Below are positions 28,480-47,414 of a DNA stretch of 64,000 nucleotides, one piece after another. The stretch lies in NCBI GenBank assembly GCA_002070115.1, contig MWCO01000009.1:1-64000 (forward strand). Direction: 5' to 3'. Numbering within the stretch: position 1 is the stretch's first letter; the number at the start of each line of letters is the position of its first letter. Position numbers and translations under genes: made by a program. Below the pieces are notes generated by a model, which was not told the DNA's origin, ran no database searches, and saw only the letters and a list, made by a program, of their open reading frames with translations. The stretch comes from Deltaproteobacteria bacterium ADurb.Bin207 (GTDB lineage Bacteria > Myxococcota_A > Polyangia > Polyangiales > Polyangiaceae).

Positions 28480-31095
28480 ATGGGAGACAAGGCAACGACG
28501 TTCCAGCTCGAGGGGTATACGCCCGAAGCGCAAAGCCTCGTGGCGGCGGCGCAAGGGTTGGCGGATGAACGTGGGCATGCGCAGGTAGAGCCCTTGCACT
28601 TGTTGGCTCGCGCCTTGGATACCGTTCCGGGCATCGATGAGCTGTTTCGCAAGGTGGGCGCCGACCCTGCGGAACTGATGAACACCGTGGAAAACGCTCT
28701 CAAACGATTGCCGAAAGGAACAGGGGGTGTGGCCTACCTATCGGCGCGTCTCATCGATTTGTTGGGACGCGCCAAGCGCGATGCGGAACGGGAGAAGGCC
28801 GCCGCGGTCGACGTGGAGCACCTGCTGCACGCGCTTTCCCAGGAAATTCGCGGTGCCGCGGGCGACGTGCTCGCCTCTTTCCAACTCGGTCCCGGCGTAT
28901 TTCGCCCGCATATTTCCATTCTCCAATCCGCACGCGAAGCCGCTGCTTCCCGCGGCTTGAAACAAAATGATTCGGTTCAGACCTCCCTTGAATCCTTCAC
29001 CCGTGACCTCGTCGCCATCGCCAAACTACCCACGGCCGATCCGGTGATTGGCCTCGATGCTCAGGTGCGACGATTGCTGCAAGTCCTCGAGCGAAGAAGC
29101 AAAAACCATCCGCTCATCGTGGGAGAACCGGGAGTCGGAAAAACAGCATTAATTCGCGCACTTGCGTCTAGAATCGCCCATGGGGACGTTCCTCCGAACC
29201 TGGTGGGACTGCGGTTGCTCGAATTGGATACGGGTGCCTTGGTAGCAGGGGCTCGCCTTCGTGGTGAGTTGGAAGAACGCGTCAAATCTCTCGTTTCGAC
29301 CTTGACCTCGGATCAACAACGCCACGAAGCCCTCCTCGTTGTGGAGAACTTCGACGCCATTCTCGGCCAGGGCGCCGTGGGCTCGGGGGTAGGCGAGCTT
29401 CTCAAACCCGTGCTCGCTCGCGGTCAGCTTCGCTTTCTTGGTACGACTACGCCAGAAGGCATCCGAAAGATTCAGGATCGCGACGCAGCCTTGTTGCGTC
29501 GCTTGACCTTCATCACCCTCGACCCTCCCACGGTCGAACAAGCCGTAGAGATTTTACGGGGAATCACCACACGCTACGAGCAACACCATCACGTACGGAT
29601 TGGAGAATCCGCGATTGTCGCTGCCGTGAACCTTGCGAAGCGTTACTTGCAAGACCGTGAGTTGCCCGATAGCGCCATTGACCTTCTCGATGAGACGGCA
29701 TCGCGCAAACGTGTCGAGACGGAGGGCATTCCTCCTGAATTGGATGATTTGATTCGACGTTTGGAGTCGGTTCGTGCGCAAGAGGCGGCGCTTGCCGACG
29801 ATGAGGATGAGGCGAGCGTTGCGACTCGCGCACGTCTCGAGCGCGAGCGTGCGGAATTGGAACCGAAAGTGCGTGATGCCAAGGCGGCCGTCGAATCCAG
29901 GCGAGGGGCCTTCGCCTTCGTGCAGGCGTTACGAAAAGAATTGGAGCAAGCCAATACCAACCTCGAGCAAGCGCGTGGCCAAAGAGACGATAAACGGCTT
30001 GGCGAATTGAATCTCGTGACCATTCCCGATTTGAAGCGCCGATTGGCCGCGGCCGAAGAGGCTATGAAAGCCACCGGTGGTGAAGCATCCAACCGTGTCA
30101 CCGATCAAGATGTGGCCATCACCCTCGGCGCTTGGACCGGCATTCCCGTGGCAAAAATGCTCGAAGCGGAAACCGAAAAACTCCTTCGGATGGAAGATCG
30201 TCTGAAGATGCGTGTCGTGGGGCAGGATGAAGCGTTGTTGGCCGTGAGTCGCGCCGTGCGACGAGGACGGGTTGGACTGCGCGATCCAAAACGCCCGATC
30301 GGTTCCTTTCTTTTTCTTGGACCCAGTGGCGTCGGAAAAACCGAACTCGCCAAGGCTTTGGCCGAATTTCTGTTCGATGACGAGCAAGCGCTGACCCGTC
30401 TCGACATGAGCGAGTTCATGGAACGTCACATGGCCCAACGTCTGCTTGGCGCTCCTCCGGGATATGTCGACAGTGAGCAAGGAGGTTTTCTCACCGAGGC
30501 CGTGCGACGTCGTCCTTATTCCGTGCTTCTTTTCGATGAAGTCGAAAAGGCTCATGGTGATGTGTTCAACCTATTGCTGCAGCTCCTCGACGATGGTCGG
30601 TTGACCGATGGACGGGGTCGCACCGCGGACTTTTCGAATACGGTCGTGATCATGACATCCAATATCGGTGCAAAGCGGATCTTGGAGGCAGGGCCGACAT
30701 CGTTTGAAACCGAAGAGGGGCGAGAGGCCTTGCGCGATGTGCTGCTCGATGAGTTGCGCGGGTTTTTCCGTCCCGAATTTCTCAACCGCATCGATGATGT
30801 CGTGGTGTTTCGGCATCTGACGCGGGAGCATCTTCGAGGGATCGTAGACATACAGCTTCGACAACTCGATCGGTTGCTCGCCGATCGGGGGCTACGCGTG
30901 CAGTTGACCGAGGCGGCGAAAATGCGTCTGGTCGACTTGGGATACGATCCTGCCTTTGGCGCTCGTCCTGTGCGACGAGCGTTGTTGCGGGAAGTTCAGA
31001 ATCCGCTGGCTGAACACTTGCTCTCTGGCACCTATGAAGCCGGGCATGTGGTGATGGTCGACGTGCGTGATGACGTATTTGTGTTTGAAGGATGA
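28480..31095 (+). CDS. ClpB-type AAA+ disaggregase with altered first Walker B
   Basis: An 871-residue Clp/Hsp100 protein with Clp-N repeats (1-150), AAA1 with Walker A GEPGVGKT (about 215-222), a coiled-coil middle domain (about 410-530, shortened) and AAA2 with GPSGVGKT (about 614-621), Walker B LLFDEVEK and C-terminal D2 small domain. In AAA1 the Walker B reads VVENFDAILGQG where ClpB has hxIDELHTIVGAG, so the catalytic Asp-Glu pair is Glu-Asn. AAA2 looks intact. It probably threads or remodels protein aggregates with DnaK, but its first ring may not hydrolyse ATP. The ATG at 28480 has AAAGGTG eight bases before it. Confidence 0.88.
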   Translation: MGDKATTFQLEGYTPEAQSLVAAAQGLADERGHAQVEPLHLLARALDTVPGIDELFRKVGADPAELMNTVENALKRLPKGTGGVAYLSARLIDLLGRAKRDAEREKAAAVDVEHLLHALSQEIRGAAGDVLASFQLGPGVFRPHISILQSAREAAASRGLKQNDSVQTSLESFTRDLVAIAKLPTADPVIGLDAQVRRLLQVLERRSKNHPLIVGEPGVGKTALIRALASRIAHGDVPPNLVGLRLLELDTGALVAGARLRGELEERVKSLVSTLTSDQQRHEALLVVENFDAILGQGAVGSGVGELLKPVLARGQLRFLGTTTPEGIRKIQDRDAALLRRLTFITLDPPTVEQAVEILRGITTRYEQHHHVRIGESAIVAAVNLAKRYLQDRELPDSAIDLLDETASRKRVETEGIPPELDDLIRRLESVRAQEAALADDEDEASVATRARLERERAELEPKVRDAKAAVESRRGAFAFVQALRKELEQANTNLEQARGQRDDKRLGELNLVTIPDLKRRLAAAEEAMKATGGEASNRVTDQDVAITLGAWTGIPVAKMLEAETEKLLRMEDRLKMRVVGQDEALLAVSRAVRRGRVGLRDPKRPIGSFLFLGPSGVGKTELAKALAEFLFDDEQALTRLDMSEFMERHMAQRLLGAPPGYVDSEQGGFLTEAVRRRPYSVLLFDEVEKAHGDVFNLLLQLLDDGRLTDGRGRTADFSNTVVIMTSNIGAKRILEAGPTSFETEEGREALRDVLLDELRGFFRPEFLNRIDDVVVFRHLTREHLRGIVDIQLRQLDRLLADRGLRVQLTEAAKMRLVDLGYDPAFGARPVRRALLREVQNPLAEHLLSGTYEAGHVVMVDVRDDVFVFEG

Positions 31096-31098
31096 ACC

Positions 31099-31170
31099 GT
31101 GCCCGTTGCGTCGATGGTGAGCGAGCAATTCGCTCGCGCTCCCTGGTGTTCTTTCCCATTGCGAGTATGA
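31099..31170 (+). CDS. Candidate 23-residue peptide upstream of radical SAM genes
   Basis: A short ORF with a GTG start three bases after the clpB stop, preceded by GAAGGA with six-base spacing. The product is MPVASMVSEQFARAPWCSFP plus LRV; it has one Cys, one Trp and two Phe residues in the last 13 positions. It ends 15 bases before a radical SAM gene. Position, ribosome site and a compact C-terminal core fit a ribosomally made precursor peptide. It could also be a leader ORF or chance; codon evidence is too short to decide. Confidence 0.35.
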   Translation: MPVASMVSEQFARAPWCSFPLRV

Positions 31171-31185
31171 ATATACGTACGGTCC

Positions 31186-32001
31186 ATGCGGATTCTCCAA
31201 CTCGGCCCGCGGTGCAATAACGCGTGCATATTCTGCGCGAATGCATTGGATCGTACCGCACCCGCGGTAGCGACCCGCGAGTGGATGGAGCGACTCGCGG
31301 CTCTTGTGCCCACCGAAGAACTTGGCGTGATGGGTGGAGAGCCAACCCTTCGTGAGGACTTGTTCGATATCGTTCGACACGCCAAACGACTCGGTGTGGG
31401 TCGCATTGTGCTTCGGACCAACGCAAGACGGTTTACGTATGTCTCGTATGCGCAGCAGCTTGCTTCCGCTGGAGTTTCGGGGCTCGACGTGGGCCTTTAC
31501 GGTTCTTCGCCCGCGATGCACGACTATCACACCGATGTGCCCGGTTCATTTTTGCAGACCCTTCGAGGAATCAAACACGCCACCGCCGTGGGAATGAACG
31601 TGATCACCACGTGTGTGGTCACCCGTTCGAATTATCGACATCTGGTCGATATCGCGCGGTTAGCCGGTTCGCTGGGTGCGCAAGGGGTCCGATTTCGAGC
31701 ACCCGAGGTGATTGGACGTGCCGCCGCCACGCGCAGCCGTATCGTTGCCCCCCCTGAACTCGCGATGGTCCATTTGCGGCGTGTGCGAGCGCAAGCACAA
31801 CGTTCGGGGCTCGACGTATCGATCGATCGAGCCTTGACCGTTGCCGTCGATGGTTCGTCGGGTGTGCAAGCCGTGGACATGGATAGGACCGCAAAAGCCT
31901 GGCCGGCTCGTCAAGAGCAACGAAGTCGTGAGCGCCGTTCCGGTGACGAGTTGCGAGATATCCTTCCCTCCCTCTTTGACTCCAGCGAGGATGAGTCCTA
32001 G
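31186..32001 (+). CDS. Radical SAM protein 1
   Basis: A 271-residue radical SAM enzyme whose CNNACIFC cluster (Cys10, 14, 17) lies almost at the N terminus. GGEPTLRED follows the first strands (SAM-binding GGE motif). The C-terminal third is basic and polar, with no SPASM Cys cluster, so only one iron-sulfur cluster is apparent. The N terminus resembles that of the dual-domain protein at 44916 (MRVLIKVGRRCNNDCVFC). Its stop overlaps the next start by one base (TAGTG). Confidence 0.88.
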   Translation: MRILQLGPRCNNACIFCANALDRTAPAVATREWMERLAALVPTEELGVMGGEPTLREDLFDIVRHAKRLGVGRIVLRTNARRFTYVSYAQQLASAGVSGLDVGLYGSSPAMHDYHTDVPGSFLQTLRGIKHATAVGMNVITTCVVTRSNYRHLVDIARLAGSLGAQGVRFRAPEVIGRAAATRSRIVAPPELAMVHLRRVRAQAQRSGLDVSIDRALTVAVDGSSGVQAVDMDRTAKAWPARQEQRSRERRSGDELRDILPSLFDSSEDES

Positions 32002-32930
32002 TGGCAAACCTCGGTTATTTGCAGCTCGTTCGTCACTGCAATCAGTATTGCCGCATTTGTTCCAATCCGGAAACGCCGTGGGTCTTGGACTTGGATGCGG
32101 CGATCCGTGCGCTCGACGACTTCGCCCAACGCGGATACGCGGGTGTCATTCTCACCGGGGGGGAGCCTTCGCTTTCGGAGATCGTCGAGCCCGTGGTCAT
32201 GCATGCCACGCAAAGGGGATTGTCTGTCCGCATGATCACCAATGGAAGTCGATTGGCGGACAAATCCTTGGCTCAGCGTTGGATCGAGGCCGGATTACGG
32301 CATTTTCACGTTTCGTTGTATTCGAGTCGTCGTGAGGTTCACGATCATATCACGTGTGTGAAGGGTTCTTTTGACCTCGCTCGCCACGCCATTCGCAACC
32401 TTGGTGAGGGGGGTGCGGTGTTGAACCTCAATACCGTCATCAATCGATTCAACTGTGATCACTTGCACGAGCTTGCCCAATTGGTGGTCGACGAAATGCC
32501 TTGGGTGAGCCATGTCGTGATCAACAATCTGGACCCGTCGATGGGAAGGGCGGAAACCAATCGGCAGGCTCTTCATCGTCTCGTGGACATGGAAGTATCT
32601 CTACACAAGGCGCTCGGGATTCTGACCGCGGGAGCCAGAACCTTCCGGGTAGAACGTGTGCCCCTGTGTTTCATGGTCGATTACGCTCATTGCTCCACCG
32701 AAACGCGAAAGATCATCAAAGCGGAAGAGCGAATCATCCACTTTTTGGATGAAAAAGGAACGGTTCGTCAGACGAGTTTCCGCCATCATAAGGCGGCGGT
32801 CTGTGCCCATTGCTCGTTGGATCCCATTTGCGCCGGATTATTCGAAATGGGGCATGGCTTCGATGAAACGGAGTTGGCCCCGGTGTTCGTCGATCCGGCC
32901 GCCATCATTCGTCGCGTTCTACGACAGTGA
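32001..32930 (+). CDS. Radical SAM protein 2
   Basis: A 309-residue radical SAM enzyme with CNQYCRIC at Cys13, 17 and 20, and the SAM motif TGGEPSLSE. A short C-terminal Cys motif (CAHCSLDPICAGL, about residues 272-284) may ligate an auxiliary cluster, SPASM-like. It is too short at the N terminus to be a typical HxsC, the usual radical SAM partner of HxsB, but may fill that place. GTG start overlapping the previous stop, so translation is coupled. Confidence 0.85.
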   Translation: MANLGYLQLVRHCNQYCRICSNPETPWVLDLDAAIRALDDFAQRGYAGVILTGGEPSLSEIVEPVVMHATQRGLSVRMITNGSRLADKSLAQRWIEAGLRHFHVSLYSSRREVHDHITCVKGSFDLARHAIRNLGEGGAVLNLNTVINRFNCDHLHELAQLVVDEMPWVSHVVINNLDPSMGRAETNRQALHRLVDMEVSLHKALGILTAGARTFRVERVPLCFMVDYAHCSTETRKIIKAEERIIHFLDEKGTVRQTSFRHHKAAVCAHCSLDPICAGLFEMGHGFDETELAPVFVDPAAIIRRVLRQ

Positions 32931-32991
32931 ATTTACCATCCAGCACCGAGAGGCTTGTCCGCTCGTCGGCACTTCACTAAACCGATGCATC

Positions 32992-33549
32992 ATGAGCGAC
33001 AACCATCAGGTGCATGCAGAATCGACCGAAGAGGGTGTGGTACTGCGTTTCGAAGAGTCGATCTATCCGAAGGATGCCGTATTCGGTGCGGCCTACACGC
33101 TTCTCGATCGATGTTTCGTTCACATCGATCGGGAAGACTCGAAGCTGCTCGTGAAGCTTCGAGCGAAACCGGGGATCACGTTGTCCGCGGACTTGCTGGC
33201 GGGCGAATTCGAGGCTGAGGCTCTCACCCAAGCCTGGCGAAGAGATATCGTTCGGGAGAACCAGGCGTGGCTCGAGAGCGTGACGGCGCGTGCCCTTTCG
33301 GGCGCGGCCGGGCCTCCAGGTCTCGATGACTTGCTCGAGGACGACCTCGGCGATTTGGGAGATGCTTTTGATGATCCCTTGGGAATCGCTGTGAGCTGGG
33401 AAGAGAAGTACGGCAAAGGCGAGCAAGCCGACCAGCCCATGAAATCCTCCGCGGCTCCGTCCGAAAGCTCGGAATCGTCGGTACCCCAAGAGTCGAAGCC
33501 TTCCTCTGACGAACCCGAAGCTTCCGATGAGCAAGGGGAACACTCATGA
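32992..33549 (+). CDS. HxsD-family His-Xaa-Ser system protein (1)
   Basis: A 185-residue protein. Residues about 15-75 (FEESIYPKDAVFGAAYTLLD then RCFVHIDREDSKLLVKLRAK) closely resemble the HxsD family of His-Xaa-Ser systems, including the motif YPxxAVxxAAYxxxDRxxVHxD and the later AGEFEAEAL. After about residue 120 comes an acidic Ser/Glu-rich tail of 50-60 residues not usual in HxsD. HxsD is thought to help precursor handling in radical SAM peptide maturation; its mechanism is unknown. ATG at 32992 lacks a clear Shine-Dalgarno sequence. Confidence 0.7.
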   Translation: MSDNHQVHAESTEEGVVLRFEESIYPKDAVFGAAYTLLDRCFVHIDREDSKLLVKLRAKPGITLSADLLAGEFEAEALTQAWRRDIVRENQAWLESVTARALSGAAGPPGLDDLLEDDLGDLGDAFDDPLGIAVSWEEKYGKGEQADQPMKSSAAPSESSESSVPQESKPSSDEPEASDEQGEHS

Positions 33550-33779
33550 CAGAACTTCGCTTCAGAATGAGTTTGTATTCATCCTCCGCGCTCGATCGGG
33601 CCCTCGAGGCCTTCGCCTCTCTTATCGACTACGAGCGCGAGAGCCGCGATGAGATGGAAGTCATTCGGTTGACCGCCCGAGCTGGTGAGGACGAGTCGTG
33701 GATCGCCGGCGAGTTTGCCAATTTCGTGCTTGGGGCGACCGTGGATGGCGTGGACGCGACACGTGTGGAGGAAGCGTGA
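33546..33779 (+). CDS. HxsD-like small protein (2)
   Basis: A 77-residue protein overlapping the HxsD gene stop (ATGA) and the following HxsB start (TGATG). Its parts FRMSLYSSSALDRALEAFAS, then RLTARAGEDESWIAGEFANF, follow the same order as the adjacent HxsD (SIYPKDAVFGAAYTLLDR, then LRAKPG and LLAGEFEAEAL). I read it as a diverged HxsD paralogue; the aromatic DRxxVHxD core is altered. Its size would also suit a precursor peptide, but it lacks His-Xaa-Ser repeats and a Gly/Cys-rich core. Confidence 0.55.
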   Translation: MTELRFRMSLYSSSALDRALEAFASLIDYERESRDEMEVIRLTARAGEDESWIAGEFANFVLGATVDGVDATRVEEA

Positions 33780-35281
33780 TGTCGGAACTCGTTCCGTTAC
33801 GGACAGGGGAAGCGACGGCGGCTGGTTTGGTGCCGTTTCGAGTTCGCAAAATCGGTCCTGACGTCCTGCTCACCAATCCTTGGGGGGATTGGGTTTTCGT
33901 GACACCGTCGGAATTGGACATTCTCGCTTCTCGATCGTTGCAGGTCGGTTCCGCGTTATACGAAAAACTTGCGGAGCGGGGGTTCCTGCGGGATCGACTG
34001 GATCCGGCGGTGGTCGCCGAACGATGGAATCGTCGAAAACGATTTCTCGACGCTGGCCCCAACTTGCACATCATCATCGCGACGTTGCGATGCAATCAGA
34101 CCTGTGTGTATTGCCACGCAAGTCGCGCACAATGGTCGGATACATCGACGGATATGTCGTTGGAAACGGCGGCCAAGGTGGTCGATTTCATCTTTCAGAG
34201 CACCTCGCCTCGTTTGACCATCGAGTTTCAGGGAGGCGAGCCCCTCGCCCACTTCGACCTTGTGAAGTATGTCATCGAACGGGCCAAGGAAAAGAATCGC
34301 CAGGAAGATAAAAACCTAGAATTTACCTTGGTTTCGAACCTCTCCCTGCTCGATGACGAAAAACTCGACTACCTGGTGAATAACAAGGTTCAGATATGCA
34401 CGAGCATTGATGGACCCGCGGAACTACATGACCGTCAGCGGGTGCTTGCGTCGGGAAGTTCCTTCACGGAAGCGGTCCGATGGATCGAGCGAATCAACCA
34501 ACGCTATGTCCAGATGGGGCTCGATCCCGTTCTTTATCATGTGGAAGCATTGATTACGACCACACGGGCCGCCTTGGCGATGCCCAAACGGATCGTGGAT
34601 ACGTACGTGGACCTCGGATGCCGAGCGATTTTTTTACGTCCGGTCGATCCTTTTGGTTTTGCCGCACAGACAGGGAAAACCATTGACTATGACCGCGCGG
34701 CGTTTCTCGATTTTTATCGACAAGCGGTGGAGCACATCCTCGACCTCAACCGTCAGGGTGTCCAGGTTCTCGAGCGGTACGCGGCCATCTTTCTCACCAA
34801 GATATTGGGTGATGAAGATCCCAACTTCCTCGATATCCGATCGCCTTGCGGCGCAGGGATCGGACAACTCGCCTACAACTATGATGGGAAGATCTTCACC
34901 TGCGACGAGGGGCGCATGCTTCATCAGATGGGCGATTCGTTCTTCCAACTCGGATCCATCGATGACGCCCGGTATCGCAAGATCATGCTCACCGATACGG
35001 TGCGAGCCATGACGATGGCATCCAACCTCGATGCCCAACCCGATTGTGTGGTGTGCGCTTACAATCCTTATTGCGGAGTGTGCCCCGTTCACAACTATGC
35101 AACCCAAGGGAGCATTTTTGGACGAATGCGAGAAAGCGCTTGGTGCGCTGTCCATAAAGGGATACAGGATTACCTATTTGACCTGTTGCGACAAAACGAT
35201 CCGACTACCATGGAAATCCTTCGTCGCTGGACTACCCTTCGTGAACGCGATCACTTTATTCAACCAACCTGTGCAGAATAG
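33779..35281 (+). CDS. HxsB-like radical SAM/SPASM maturase
   Basis: A 500-residue enzyme. An N-terminal domain of about 90 residues (LVPFRVRKIGPDVLLTNPWG then DWVFVTPSEL) precedes the radical SAM cluster CNQTCVYC (Cys105, 109, 112), the GGEP motif and a C-terminal SPASM region with CGAG, CDEG, CVVCAYNPYCGVCPVH and a late Cys. This order matches HxsB of His-Xaa-Ser systems, which with HxsC is expected to install crosslinks in a repeat peptide. ATG overlaps the previous stop, with GGAGG eight bases upstream. HxsA (the repeat precursor) is not seen. Confidence 0.75.
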   Translation: MSELVPLRTGEATAAGLVPFRVRKIGPDVLLTNPWGDWVFVTPSELDILASRSLQVGSALYEKLAERGFLRDRLDPAVVAERWNRRKRFLDAGPNLHIIIATLRCNQTCVYCHASRAQWSDTSTDMSLETAAKVVDFIFQSTSPRLTIEFQGGEPLAHFDLVKYVIERAKEKNRQEDKNLEFTLVSNLSLLDDEKLDYLVNNKVQICTSIDGPAELHDRQRVLASGSSFTEAVRWIERINQRYVQMGLDPVLYHVEALITTTRAALAMPKRIVDTYVDLGCRAIFLRPVDPFGFAAQTGKTIDYDRAAFLDFYRQAVEHILDLNRQGVQVLERYAAIFLTKILGDEDPNFLDIRSPCGAGIGQLAYNYDGKIFTCDEGRMLHQMGDSFFQLGSIDDARYRKIMLTDTVRAMTMASNLDAQPDCVVCAYNPYCGVCPVHNYATQGSIFGRMRESAWCAVHKGIQDYLFDLLRQNDPTTMEILRRWTTLRERDHFIQPTCAE

Positions 35282-44263: not shown

Positions 44264-44869
44264 GTGGACAGCGATCTGGTCGAGGCCGTTGATAAGCTCA
44301 AGGCCATTTTAGACAAACGGACGATTTCATTCTCTCTCGGCGCAGCATCGAGAGACGTTGTGGACCGCGTTACGCAACGGTTGAAACTTCCACCTCGTTA
44401 TCGCTCCTTCTTGTTGGAGGCGAACCCGACAGAACTGCAAACGGTGACTCCGGTCGAGAGTGTCCAGTTCATTCCCGCTGAGGAGTTGCTTCAAGAACAG
44501 GTGGGCTTCTCCCTATCCGAGGACCTCAAACACCTGTCTCCCGGCAAAGATGGCTCGTGGCGTCGAAGTTGGATCATCATCGCCTACGGTGTGCTTGGGG
44601 ACCCATACTTTTTAGACACCTCCCAAGGTGATGCCGAAGGAGATTGTCCCGTATTTACCGCCATGAGCGGAACGGAACGATGGGATCCCAGCCTCGCGGC
44701 CTCCAGTTTCGTTCAATTCCTTCAAATCCTGACGACCGCCATGGAGGTTGCCGACGGGTTTGGGGAAGCCGAGCTTGGGGTCGACGATGAGGACGTGTTT
44801 CGGGAAGCGTTGGCGCCACGAATTCGAACGCTCGATCCGGCCGCCCTGCGTGCGGGCCATTGGACGTAA
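44264..44869 (+). CDS. SMI1/KNR4 (SUKH) family protein
   Basis: A 201-residue protein whose central part, LPPRYRSFLLEANPTELQTV, then SVQFIPAEELLQEQVGFSLS and DPYFLDTSQGDAEGDCPVFT, fits the SMI1/KNR4 fold. Many SUKH proteins are immunity proteins against secreted toxins, but others are housekeeping. No toxin gene is adjacent; instead a radical SAM gene begins 46 bases downstream on the same strand, so the two may be co-transcribed. GTG start with AGAGGG upstream. Confidence 0.65.
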   Translation: MDSDLVEAVDKLKAILDKRTISFSLGAASRDVVDRVTQRLKLPPRYRSFLLEANPTELQTVTPVESVQFIPAEELLQEQVGFSLSEDLKHLSPGKDGSWRRSWIIIAYGVLGDPYFLDTSQGDAEGDCPVFTAMSGTERWDPSLAASSFVQFLQILTTAMEVADGFGEAELGVDDEDVFREALAPRIRTLDPAALRAGHWT

Positions 44870-44915: not shown

Positions 44916-47414
44916 GTGCGTGTTCTGATCAAGGTTGGCCGTCGCTGCAACAACGATTGCGTTTTCTGTCACGCCGCCGACCGACGGCGCGGGATCGAAC
45001 CGCTGGCCTTGCTCGAAAGCAAAATACGCCGGGCCCGCGACAAAGGCGCGACCATGGTCATCCTGTCGGGGGGTGAACCCACCGTGCATCCGGACCTGCT
45101 ACCACTTGCCGAATGTGTGGCTCACCACGGGTTGCAACTTGGTCTCGTCACCAACGGTCGACGTCTTGCCGATGCTTCCCTGGTCGACGATCTGCTGCGG
45201 CACAATTTAACATTCGTCTACGTTTCGTTGCACGGCGCGCGCGCTTCTCTGCACGATGCCATGGTTCGCACAAAGGCTTTTGAACAGACGCTCCGCGGGA
45301 TTCATCAGGTTGCTGGACGCGTGCAAGAGCTGACTGTCAACACGGTCGTCACGCGGGACAACCTCTTCGAGCTTCGACAAATCGTCGAATTGCTCGAGCC
45401 CCTTCCCAATATCGGTGTCAAATTCACCTTCCCCCAGCCCAAGGGTGCTGCCTTCGAGCATTTCGATGCCGTGATTCCCTCCCTGTCGGAAGCCGCCCAC
45501 TATGTCGCGGACGCCATCTCTTCCGCCCAGGCCCGCGGTTCTCCTGTGCGATTCGGATTCGAAGGTTTTCCCCTGTGTCTCATGCCAAGACTCGAAAGCC
45601 TTCACGACGATCTGCTCACGCGCAACATTCGCAGCATGATGGAACCCGAGGACGAGGACCTGTTCCCGGTCGATGACCTCTTGTTCACCAAACTGCCTCA
45701 ATGCGAAAATTGCGAGAATCGTGCTGCATGTCCCGGCGTGTACCGTGAGTACATTCGTCGAAGAGGGGATGAGGAAATCGTTGGTGATGCCCACGCGGCC
45801 ACGAGCCACATCGTTGTGGAACAGGCCCACCTACGCGAGCAAGCTGCGCATGAACGACGCCATTGGGTGCGGTTGTCATGGGCTTGCAACAATCGTTGTC
45901 GATTCTGTCTCGATCGGGAACTGTCTCGTGCTTCTCATCGCTCCGAGCAGGATATTGGAAACGATATCCTTCAGGGACGTCGTGAGGGCGCCGAACGTTT
46001 GATCCTGTCCGGAGGAGAGCCCACGACCCACCCGAAATTCATATCATGGATTCGGTTTGGAAAGCGTGCGGGCTATGGTTGGGTGCAAGCCATTACGAAC
46101 GGACGGATGCTGAGTTATCCGCGATTTCTCGCCGAGGCGATTCGAGCCGGCCTCGATGAGATCACGGTATCCCTTCACGGACACACGGCATCCTTGCACG
46201 ATCAGCTCGTGGGTGTTTCAGGCGCATTCGAACAAGCCGTGCGCGGCCTTCGATCGGCCCTCGCGTCCAAACGACTCGTGGTCAATGTCGATATCGTCGT
46301 CAACGCCCATAACGTCGACCATTTACCCGAAATGCTAGAAACCTTCGTAGGTTGGGGAGTTCGGGAATTCGACCTGCTTCATCTCATTCCGTTCGGTGGC
46401 GCTTGGGAATCCACGTCTGGCGACCTGTTTTACGACCTTGCCCAACACGGGGATTCGATTCGACGCGCCCTCGAATTTTGCCGAGAGCAAGGCGTGCAGG
46501 TATGGCTCAATCGATTTCCTCCACCCCATGCCGAAGGGTTCGAGTATCTCATTCAAGATCCGGTCAAACTCCAAGATGAAGTGCGAGGAAGAGCCTCGTC
46601 CTTCGAGGCGCTCGTGACCGGAGGACCCCATCTTCCTTGCCGAGACCCCAAACGCTGTCGGCTTTGTTACTTACAAGGATTATGCGACGATTTTGAGCGG
46701 TTCGTGGCCTTGTCTCGAGAATCATTCGTCCCGGCGCTTCGCGTGGATGAAAACGTTCCGAAAGAACTGCTTGCACGATTGCCGAAAACCGATCGACTCG
46801 AAATTGTAGCCGCCGACCCGCAATCCGCCCTTGCGCTCGCTTCCACACTCCACGCTCGTAGCGTGTCGTTGCGGTTGGACGATTACGAGGATTTATCGAA
46901 ATACGTCGATGACGGCGGGTGCTTCGGAGGGATGGCGCTACGCGAAGTCGTTGTATCCCGATCGGGTCAATGGAAAGCGGCGCTCGAAGGTGCCAACACC
47001 GATCTCGTCGTGCTCCTTCACCGTGACCTGATGCCCCTGTTTGCTTCCTTCCACGAATGCGCAAATCGTCTCATCCTCGAGCAACCGACGTATCACAAAC
47101 TTACGACATCCCTTCGAAATGATGTCGATTTGCGTTCGTTGTTTCAGACTCTCGGCAAAGCAATTCGCACTCGCGGTATCGCCCGTTGTCTTTCCGGCCT
47201 GGAACCGTTGAAACGATGGGACTGGCTCGAAGCGAGGTTCATGCGACCCGATGGTACGATTGATCCGCAACAGTTGACCCGTTGGTATGGTCGAGACAGA
47301 TTTTTCGCGAAAAGCCTACGATGCAAGGATTGTCGCTGGAATGACGATTGCGTGGGAATGCATATCAATTGGTTGCGTGCCCACGGATTCGCACAGTTGA
47401 TCCCCCAGCACTGA
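44916..47414 (+). CDS. Dual radical SAM domain protein
   Basis: An 832-residue protein with two full radical SAM domains in tandem. Domain 1: CNNDCVFC (Cys11, 15, 18), SGGEPTVHPD, then C-terminal CENCENRAAC. Domain 2: CNNRCRFC (Cys324, 328, 331), SGGEPTTHPK and CRDPKRCRLCYLQGLC. A last section of about 200 residues ends with CKDCRWNDDC. The two halves share the same order of motifs, so they look like an ancient duplication. The enzyme could act twice on one substrate. GTG start at 44916. Confidence 0.85.
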   Translation: MRVLIKVGRRCNNDCVFCHAADRRRGIEPLALLESKIRRARDKGATMVILSGGEPTVHPDLLPLAECVAHHGLQLGLVTNGRRLADASLVDDLLRHNLTFVYVSLHGARASLHDAMVRTKAFEQTLRGIHQVAGRVQELTVNTVVTRDNLFELRQIVELLEPLPNIGVKFTFPQPKGAAFEHFDAVIPSLSEAAHYVADAISSAQARGSPVRFGFEGFPLCLMPRLESLHDDLLTRNIRSMMEPEDEDLFPVDDLLFTKLPQCENCENRAACPGVYREYIRRRGDEEIVGDAHAATSHIVVEQAHLREQAAHERRHWVRLSWACNNRCRFCLDRELSRASHRSEQDIGNDILQGRREGAERLILSGGEPTTHPKFISWIRFGKRAGYGWVQAITNGRMLSYPRFLAEAIRAGLDEITVSLHGHTASLHDQLVGVSGAFEQAVRGLRSALASKRLVVNVDIVVNAHNVDHLPEMLETFVGWGVREFDLLHLIPFGGAWESTSGDLFYDLAQHGDSIRRALEFCREQGVQVWLNRFPPPHAEGFEYLIQDPVKLQDEVRGRASSFEALVTGGPHLPCRDPKRCRLCYLQGLCDDFERFVALSRESFVPALRVDENVPKELLARLPKTDRLEIVAADPQSALALASTLHARSVSLRLDDYEDLSKYVDDGGCFGGMALREVVVSRSGQWKAALEGANTDLVVLLHRDLMPLFASFHECANRLILEQPTYHKLTTSLRNDVDLRSLFQTLGKAIRTRGIARCLSGLEPLKRWDWLEARFMRPDGTIDPQQLTRWYGRDRFFAKSLRCKDCRWNDDCVGMHINWLRAHGFAQLIPQH

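Follow-up and report, generated by a model that had tools for sequence, protein, structure and literature searches.

The analyzed window, a 64,000-nucleotide stretch of contig C9 from a 6.5-Mb myxobacterial assembly of 220 contigs, contains behind clpB a run of five plus-strand genes encoding two short radical S-adenosylmethionine (SAM) proteins, designated here rS1 and rS2, the HxsD protein, an HxsD-like paralogue and the radical SAM/SPASM maturase HxsB. Judged by sequence, the locus appears to be a variant of the His-Xaa-Ser systems that make ribosomally synthesized and post-translationally modified peptides (RiPPs), with the substrate provided in trans. The five genes would make up the maturation side of an HxsA4-type system with an unlinked precursor gene, and we assign HxsA4 as the substrate with strong confidence.

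The preliminary description of this DNA had regarded the repeat protein as missing and had proposed a different substrate. No His-Xaa-Ser repeat array was present in the six reading frames of the window, and in the whole genome no HxsA (TIGR03979) scored over the cut-off of 121.65, the best hit of 11.4 bits being a chance match. The same genome, however, encodes HxsA4 on contig C107 (95.4 bits against NF038313, cut-off 55), and this family is co-inherited with HxsB and occupies the syntenic locus in the related genome G015, so neither statement could be upheld. The sequence of this HxsA4 reads MASQRKAPPRYERRPRGMLSEDENRSIDRARDACNGEVMGDPNDPTFPAQ, then HCS HAS (HGS)10 W, which gives a 50-residue leader, 12 H-x-S units (one HCS, one HAS and ten HGS) and a final Trp. 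The conserved features of the family comprise LPSF or PPxY followed by R...GMLSxxE in the leader, the PAQ|HCS junction, the His-Gly-Ser array and the terminal Trp. Across relatives the arrays are almost purely HGS and count 7–53 units; L092:10059-10751 encodes one of 53 H-x-S units and L090:11100-11693 one of 42, against 12 in the genome analyzed here.

Relatives carry a short gene beside hxsB that codes for a peptide ending with HCS(HGS)nW, named HxsA4 in NCBIfam. It was found immediately behind hxsB in six loci (L050, L054, L058, L060, L062 and L105). In G015 (locus L050) it is situated between HxsB and CutA, and a second, unlinked copy is also present in that genome. The genome analyzed here, G022 and G061 possess HxsA4 solely as an unlinked copy. 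Of 54 genomes, 26 had no HxsA4 copy near HxsB; it was mostly on another contig, often in fragmented assemblies, but in G075 the two were separated by 209 kb on one contig. Contamination as the origin of HxsA4 was rejected. The tetranucleotide use of C107 correlated with that of the window at r 0.958 (0.59–0.78 for other genomes), and the HxsA4 proteins nearest in the leader to the one encoded here came from G015, G022 and G061, the genomes that are nearest also for rS2 and HxsB. Both observations tie the contig to this genome.

Across the phylum, HxsA4, HxsB and rS2 share one pattern of retention and loss. Among 145 genomes, with the co-occurrence given as both/first only/second only/neither, the counts were 53/1/8/83 for HxsA4 and HxsB (p 1e-29; HxsA4 counted over its cut-off) and 53/1/6/85 for HxsA4 and rS2. 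Four of the eight genomes with HxsB only (G018, G019, G078 and G092) have a classical-looking HxsB/HxsC locus, and in five of the six with rS2 only (G064, G090, G105, G106 and G137) the HxsA4 matches are weaker or split. The sample of 379 Myxococcota genomes, in which HxsA4 was counted at E 1e-9 and which therefore takes in some matches under the curated cut-off, gave 118/6/8/247 for HxsA4 and HxsB, 113/11/10/245 for HxsA4 and rS2, and 117/9/6/247 for HxsB and rS2. All three were present in 81 genomes of this sample outside the order, and HxsA4 exceeded its cut-off in 114 of the 379. Both presence and absence of the system were seen inside the family to which the window belongs.

The gene set itself was largely as previously described: the five genes on the plus strand are real, the HxsD gene is doubled, and the view of an Hxs-type variant with two short radical SAM proteins stands. 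HxsB matched TIGR03978 with 559.6 bits (NCBIfam cut-off 370) and the HxsD-like paralogue matched NF038315 with 56.9 bits (cut-off 41). HxsD barely passed TIGR03976 (50.9 bits, cut-off 50), and this borderline score depends on the ATG at 32992 being the start. The locus had been placed at 31099–35281, which begins just past the end of clpB at 31095; the first gene starts only at 31186. Of the four joints reported to overlap or nearly overlap, three do overlap (rS1/rS2 by one base, HxsD/HxsD-like by four and HxsD-like/HxsB by one), and the fourth, rS2/HxsD, is a gap of 61 bases. A minus-strand gene read as CutA bounds the run beyond HxsB. All five genes occur together in at least seven further genomes of the family (L043, L050, L065, L081, L105, L106 and L107), so their grouping is not due to chance, and the possibility that relatives do not keep them together was not borne out. 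The full set, consisting of HxsA4, HxsB, HxsD, the HxsD-like protein, rS1, rS2, a homologue of HxsC4 and a protein exported by the twin-arginine translocation (Tat)-type route, is spread over three contigs (Table 1).

Table 1. Genes of the putative HxsA4-type system and further genes of the window; positions without a contig or locus name refer to the window.
Feature	Position	Strand	Remarks
rS1, 271-aa radical SAM protein (CNNACIFC), lacking a C-terminal Cys cluster	31186..32001	+	ATG start; PF04055, E 2.5e-20
rS2, 309-aa radical SAM protein (CNQYCRIC), conserved C-terminal CxxCx5C Cys group	32001..32930	+	GTG start; PF04055, E 1.4e-18
HxsD, 185 aa, C-terminal tail with conserved motif FDDPLGIAVSWEEKYGK and Ser/Glu-rich end	32992..33549	+	ATG start; TIGR03976
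HxsD-like paralogue, 77 aa, beta-alpha-beta-beta-alpha	33546..33779	+	ATG start; NF038315
HxsB, 500-aa radical SAM/SPASM maturase	33779..35281	+	ATG start; TIGR03978 over full length
HxsA4 precursor	C107:10570-10806	-	NF038313; also given as L108:1501-1761 (-)
Tat-type exported protein, ~170 aa	L108:1802-2305	-	neighbours HxsA4; family also before rS1 in L043, L050 and L105
HxsC4 homologue	C3:20085-21050		full length
SUKH-1 (SMI1/KNR4) protein	44264-44869	+	PF09346, E 6e-10
832-aa protein, two tandem radical SAM domains	44916-47414	+	HxsC4 247 bits, HxsC 172 bits

Neither rS1 nor rS2 exceeded any NCBIfam model at its cut-off. With the HxsC model (cut-off 267.9) they scored 100 and 107 bits and with the HxsC4 model (cut-off 500) 103 and 61 bits, respectively. 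In a tree of 126 radical SAM domains, separate clades were formed by rS1 (17 rows, support 99), rS2 (22 rows, 99), HxsC4 (19 rows, 100) and classical HxsC (6 rows, 100), the deep joins being unsure because the tree was built with FastTree. An identity of rS1 with HxsC4 was ruled out by both score and tree. The best HxsC4 match in the genome is the full-length homologue on contig C3, with 380 bits against the cut-off of 500. The preliminary claim that HxsC had been replaced by two short radical SAM proteins was thus correct in that neither is a classical HxsC, and incomplete since it missed this homologue. Full-length homologues of rS2, with 48–77% identity, were found in 59 of the 145 genomes. 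rS2 retains CNxxCxxC together with the C-terminal Cys group. The gene of the Tat-type protein lies just upstream of HxsA4 on C107, and its homologues in relatives precede rS1; no match to the protein was found in Pfam or NCBIfam.

Further radical SAM proteins of this kind were noticed elsewhere. The window also encodes a protein with two tandem radical SAM domains, most alike to HxsC4 and HxsC and directly preceded by the SUKH-1 gene, and relatives with HxsB contain more long frames whose radical SAM matches resemble HxsC4. The phylum also harbors a second Hxs locus of classical appearance (L034–L040), with a higher-scoring HxsB (~590 bits) and an HxsC clade of its own; L034 contains a mixed H-x-S run, HRSHSSHRSHAS.

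HxsD and the HxsD-like protein were related in profile–profile comparison (E 4.6e-13, probability 97.9), and their predicted models, built with four sequences each, share a beta-alpha-beta-beta-alpha core; the AlphaFold2 model of the HxsD-like protein had a predicted local distance difference test score of 88.5. The C-terminal tail of HxsD, which falls outside the 90 positions of TIGR03976, reads PPGLDxLL...F(D/E)DPLGIAxSWEEKY in most of the ~50 relatives aligned. A Foldseek search of the PDB gave no match at E <0.001 for either protein, and the HxsD profile found no match among the PDB sequences. The best VIA-align Z-scores of the two folds, 7.2 and 7.9, are in the range of common arrangements, and the resemblances to Pcc1 and to ferredoxin-like folds were not accepted as evidence. 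In L094 (359-1447) a gene for an alpha-ketoglutarate-HExxH-type peptide beta-hydroxylase (TIGR04267, 96 bits) was seen directly upstream of HxsD, and a similar-looking protein is encoded near HxsD in L042.

We propose that HxsD and its paralogue, as homologous small alpha/beta proteins, serve as an adaptor gripping the leader of HxsA4, as RiPP recognition element domains do elsewhere. The adaptor would dock the leader on HxsB as well as on the short radical SAM enzymes, perhaps via the DPLGIAxSWEEKY part of the HxsD tail, and these enzymes would then act repetitively along the HGS array. SPASM radical SAM enzymes are known to form His C2–C-beta(i+2) and Phe–C-beta Ser(i+2) cyclophanes (PMC11002830). 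The simplest case would be one His(i)–Ser(i+2) link per three-residue repeat, with the geometry of known three-residue cyclophanes. By this analogy the His–Ser cyclophane is our best guess of the chemistry, though a guess with a chance of being right well below even. Other positions (the first HCS or the last Trp) or later steps might be the task of rS1, rS2 and the HxsC4 homologue encoded elsewhere, and the Tat-type protein adjoining HxsA4 may aid the export of the product. Extended to the Myxococcota as a whole, the picture would be a pathway dispersed over several loci. A single (His-Gly-Ser)n-Trp peptide would be processed by two HxsD paralogues and no fewer than four radical SAM enzymes, namely HxsB, rS1, rS2 and an HxsC4 homologue, with rS2 as a core enzyme that has no model and the HxsD tail docking the partners. 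We consider this extension an even call.

Several points weigh against the proposal. HxsA4 is unlinked in this genome, hence the pairing relies on co-inheritance and on relatives, and the co-occurrence counts carry no correction for shared ancestry. As no confident structural relative of HxsD was found, the fold lends the adaptor role no support. HxsB matched PapB-type thioether maturases (128 bits) and an anaerobic sulfatase maturase (91 bits) better than the cyclophane maturase YhhB (71 bits), and since PapB scored above any cyclophane maturase, homology does not favour the cyclophane. A search of the available literature gave no biochemistry for any Hxs system. The same scores make it quite possible, nearly an even matter, that the system and its substrate are as proposed and the chemistry is another one: a thioether, epimerization or oxidation of Ser as in the anaerobic sulfatase maturases, the product being perhaps a His-rich metal-binding peptide. 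The very regular, His-rich array is in keeping with such a reading. The HxsA4 core contains only one Cys (in HCS), so thioethers cannot account for action on every repeat.

The division of labor might also differ. Only HxsB with HxsD and the HxsD-like protein would then act on HxsA4, and rS1 and rS2 would constitute a second pathway encoded in the same operon and perhaps under the same regulation. Their clades stand apart from those of HxsC and HxsC4, numerous genomes encode them at sites unlinked to HxsB, and in L042, L066, L085 and L162 they combine with the Tat-type protein into a separate module. In these same four loci, however, the module lies near HxsA4, and rS2 follows HxsA4 and HxsB nearly one to one across the phylum, which makes this division unlikely. 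Still less probable is that the locus modifies another protein altogether, such as the lipoprotein with CDGxDNNCDGxVDEG (MopE) repeats (PF11617, E 4.2e-22) and a common C-terminal domain, which is encoded upstream of HxsD inside eight clusters (L043, L050, L054, L058, L060, L062, L081 and L105). The genome analyzed here has nothing matching its C-terminal domain, and clusters L065, L106 and L107 lack the lipoprotein, which excludes it as the general substrate; MopE repeats as such are present at many other places of this genome.

HxsA4 as the substrate in trans turns an Hxs locus seemingly devoid of a substrate into a testable set of enzymes and substrate. The kind of system is already known, as NCBIfam holds models of HxsA4, HxsC4 and the HxsD-like protein, and our search of the available literature found no description of HxsA4 or HxsC4. 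New are the separate clades of rS1 and rS2, the phylum-wide tie of rS2 to HxsA4 and HxsB, the frequently unlinked precursor and the tail of HxsD. Since Hxs precursors and maturases are often unlinked, RiPP mining based on gene neighbourhood overlooks them. The tracking of HxsA4 and HxsB by rS2 nominates this protein, which lacks a family model, as a core radical SAM enzyme, and the near-perfect HGS arrays offer a good substrate for finding out the Hxs chemistry.

Among known systems, the triceptides and other three-residue cyclophane RiPPs (XncB, OscB, MscB, HaaB and YhhB) share with the locus a SPASM radical SAM maturase and three-residue motifs, the HGS repeat being compatible with them by its sequence. 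HaaB and YhhB make His-to-C-beta(i+2) links (PMC11002830). Unlike in those systems, a single substrate here comes with several radical SAM enzymes, and the homology of HxsB to the triceptide enzymes is weak (56–71 bits). With the classical HxsA/B/C/D systems (TIGR03976–TIGR03979) the locus has in common HxsB, HxsD and the plan of a SPASM enzyme, a short radical SAM enzyme, HxsD and a His-Xaa-Ser repeat substrate. It departs from them in that the genome has no HxsA over the cut-off, no HxsC exceeds its cut-off at the locus, HxsD is duplicated and a C-terminal tail has been added to HxsD. From the HxsA4-type system (NF038313 for HxsA4, NF038332 for HxsC4, NF038315 for the HxsD-like protein, TIGR03978 for HxsB and TIGR03976 for HxsD) the differences are the two additional radical SAM proteins rS1 and rS2, the HxsC4 homologue under the curated cut-off, and the placement of both this homologue and the substrate on contigs other than that of HxsB. 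HxsB, HxsD and the HxsD-like protein all exceed the cut-offs of that system, and the genome possesses HxsA4 and a full-length HxsC4 homologue as well.

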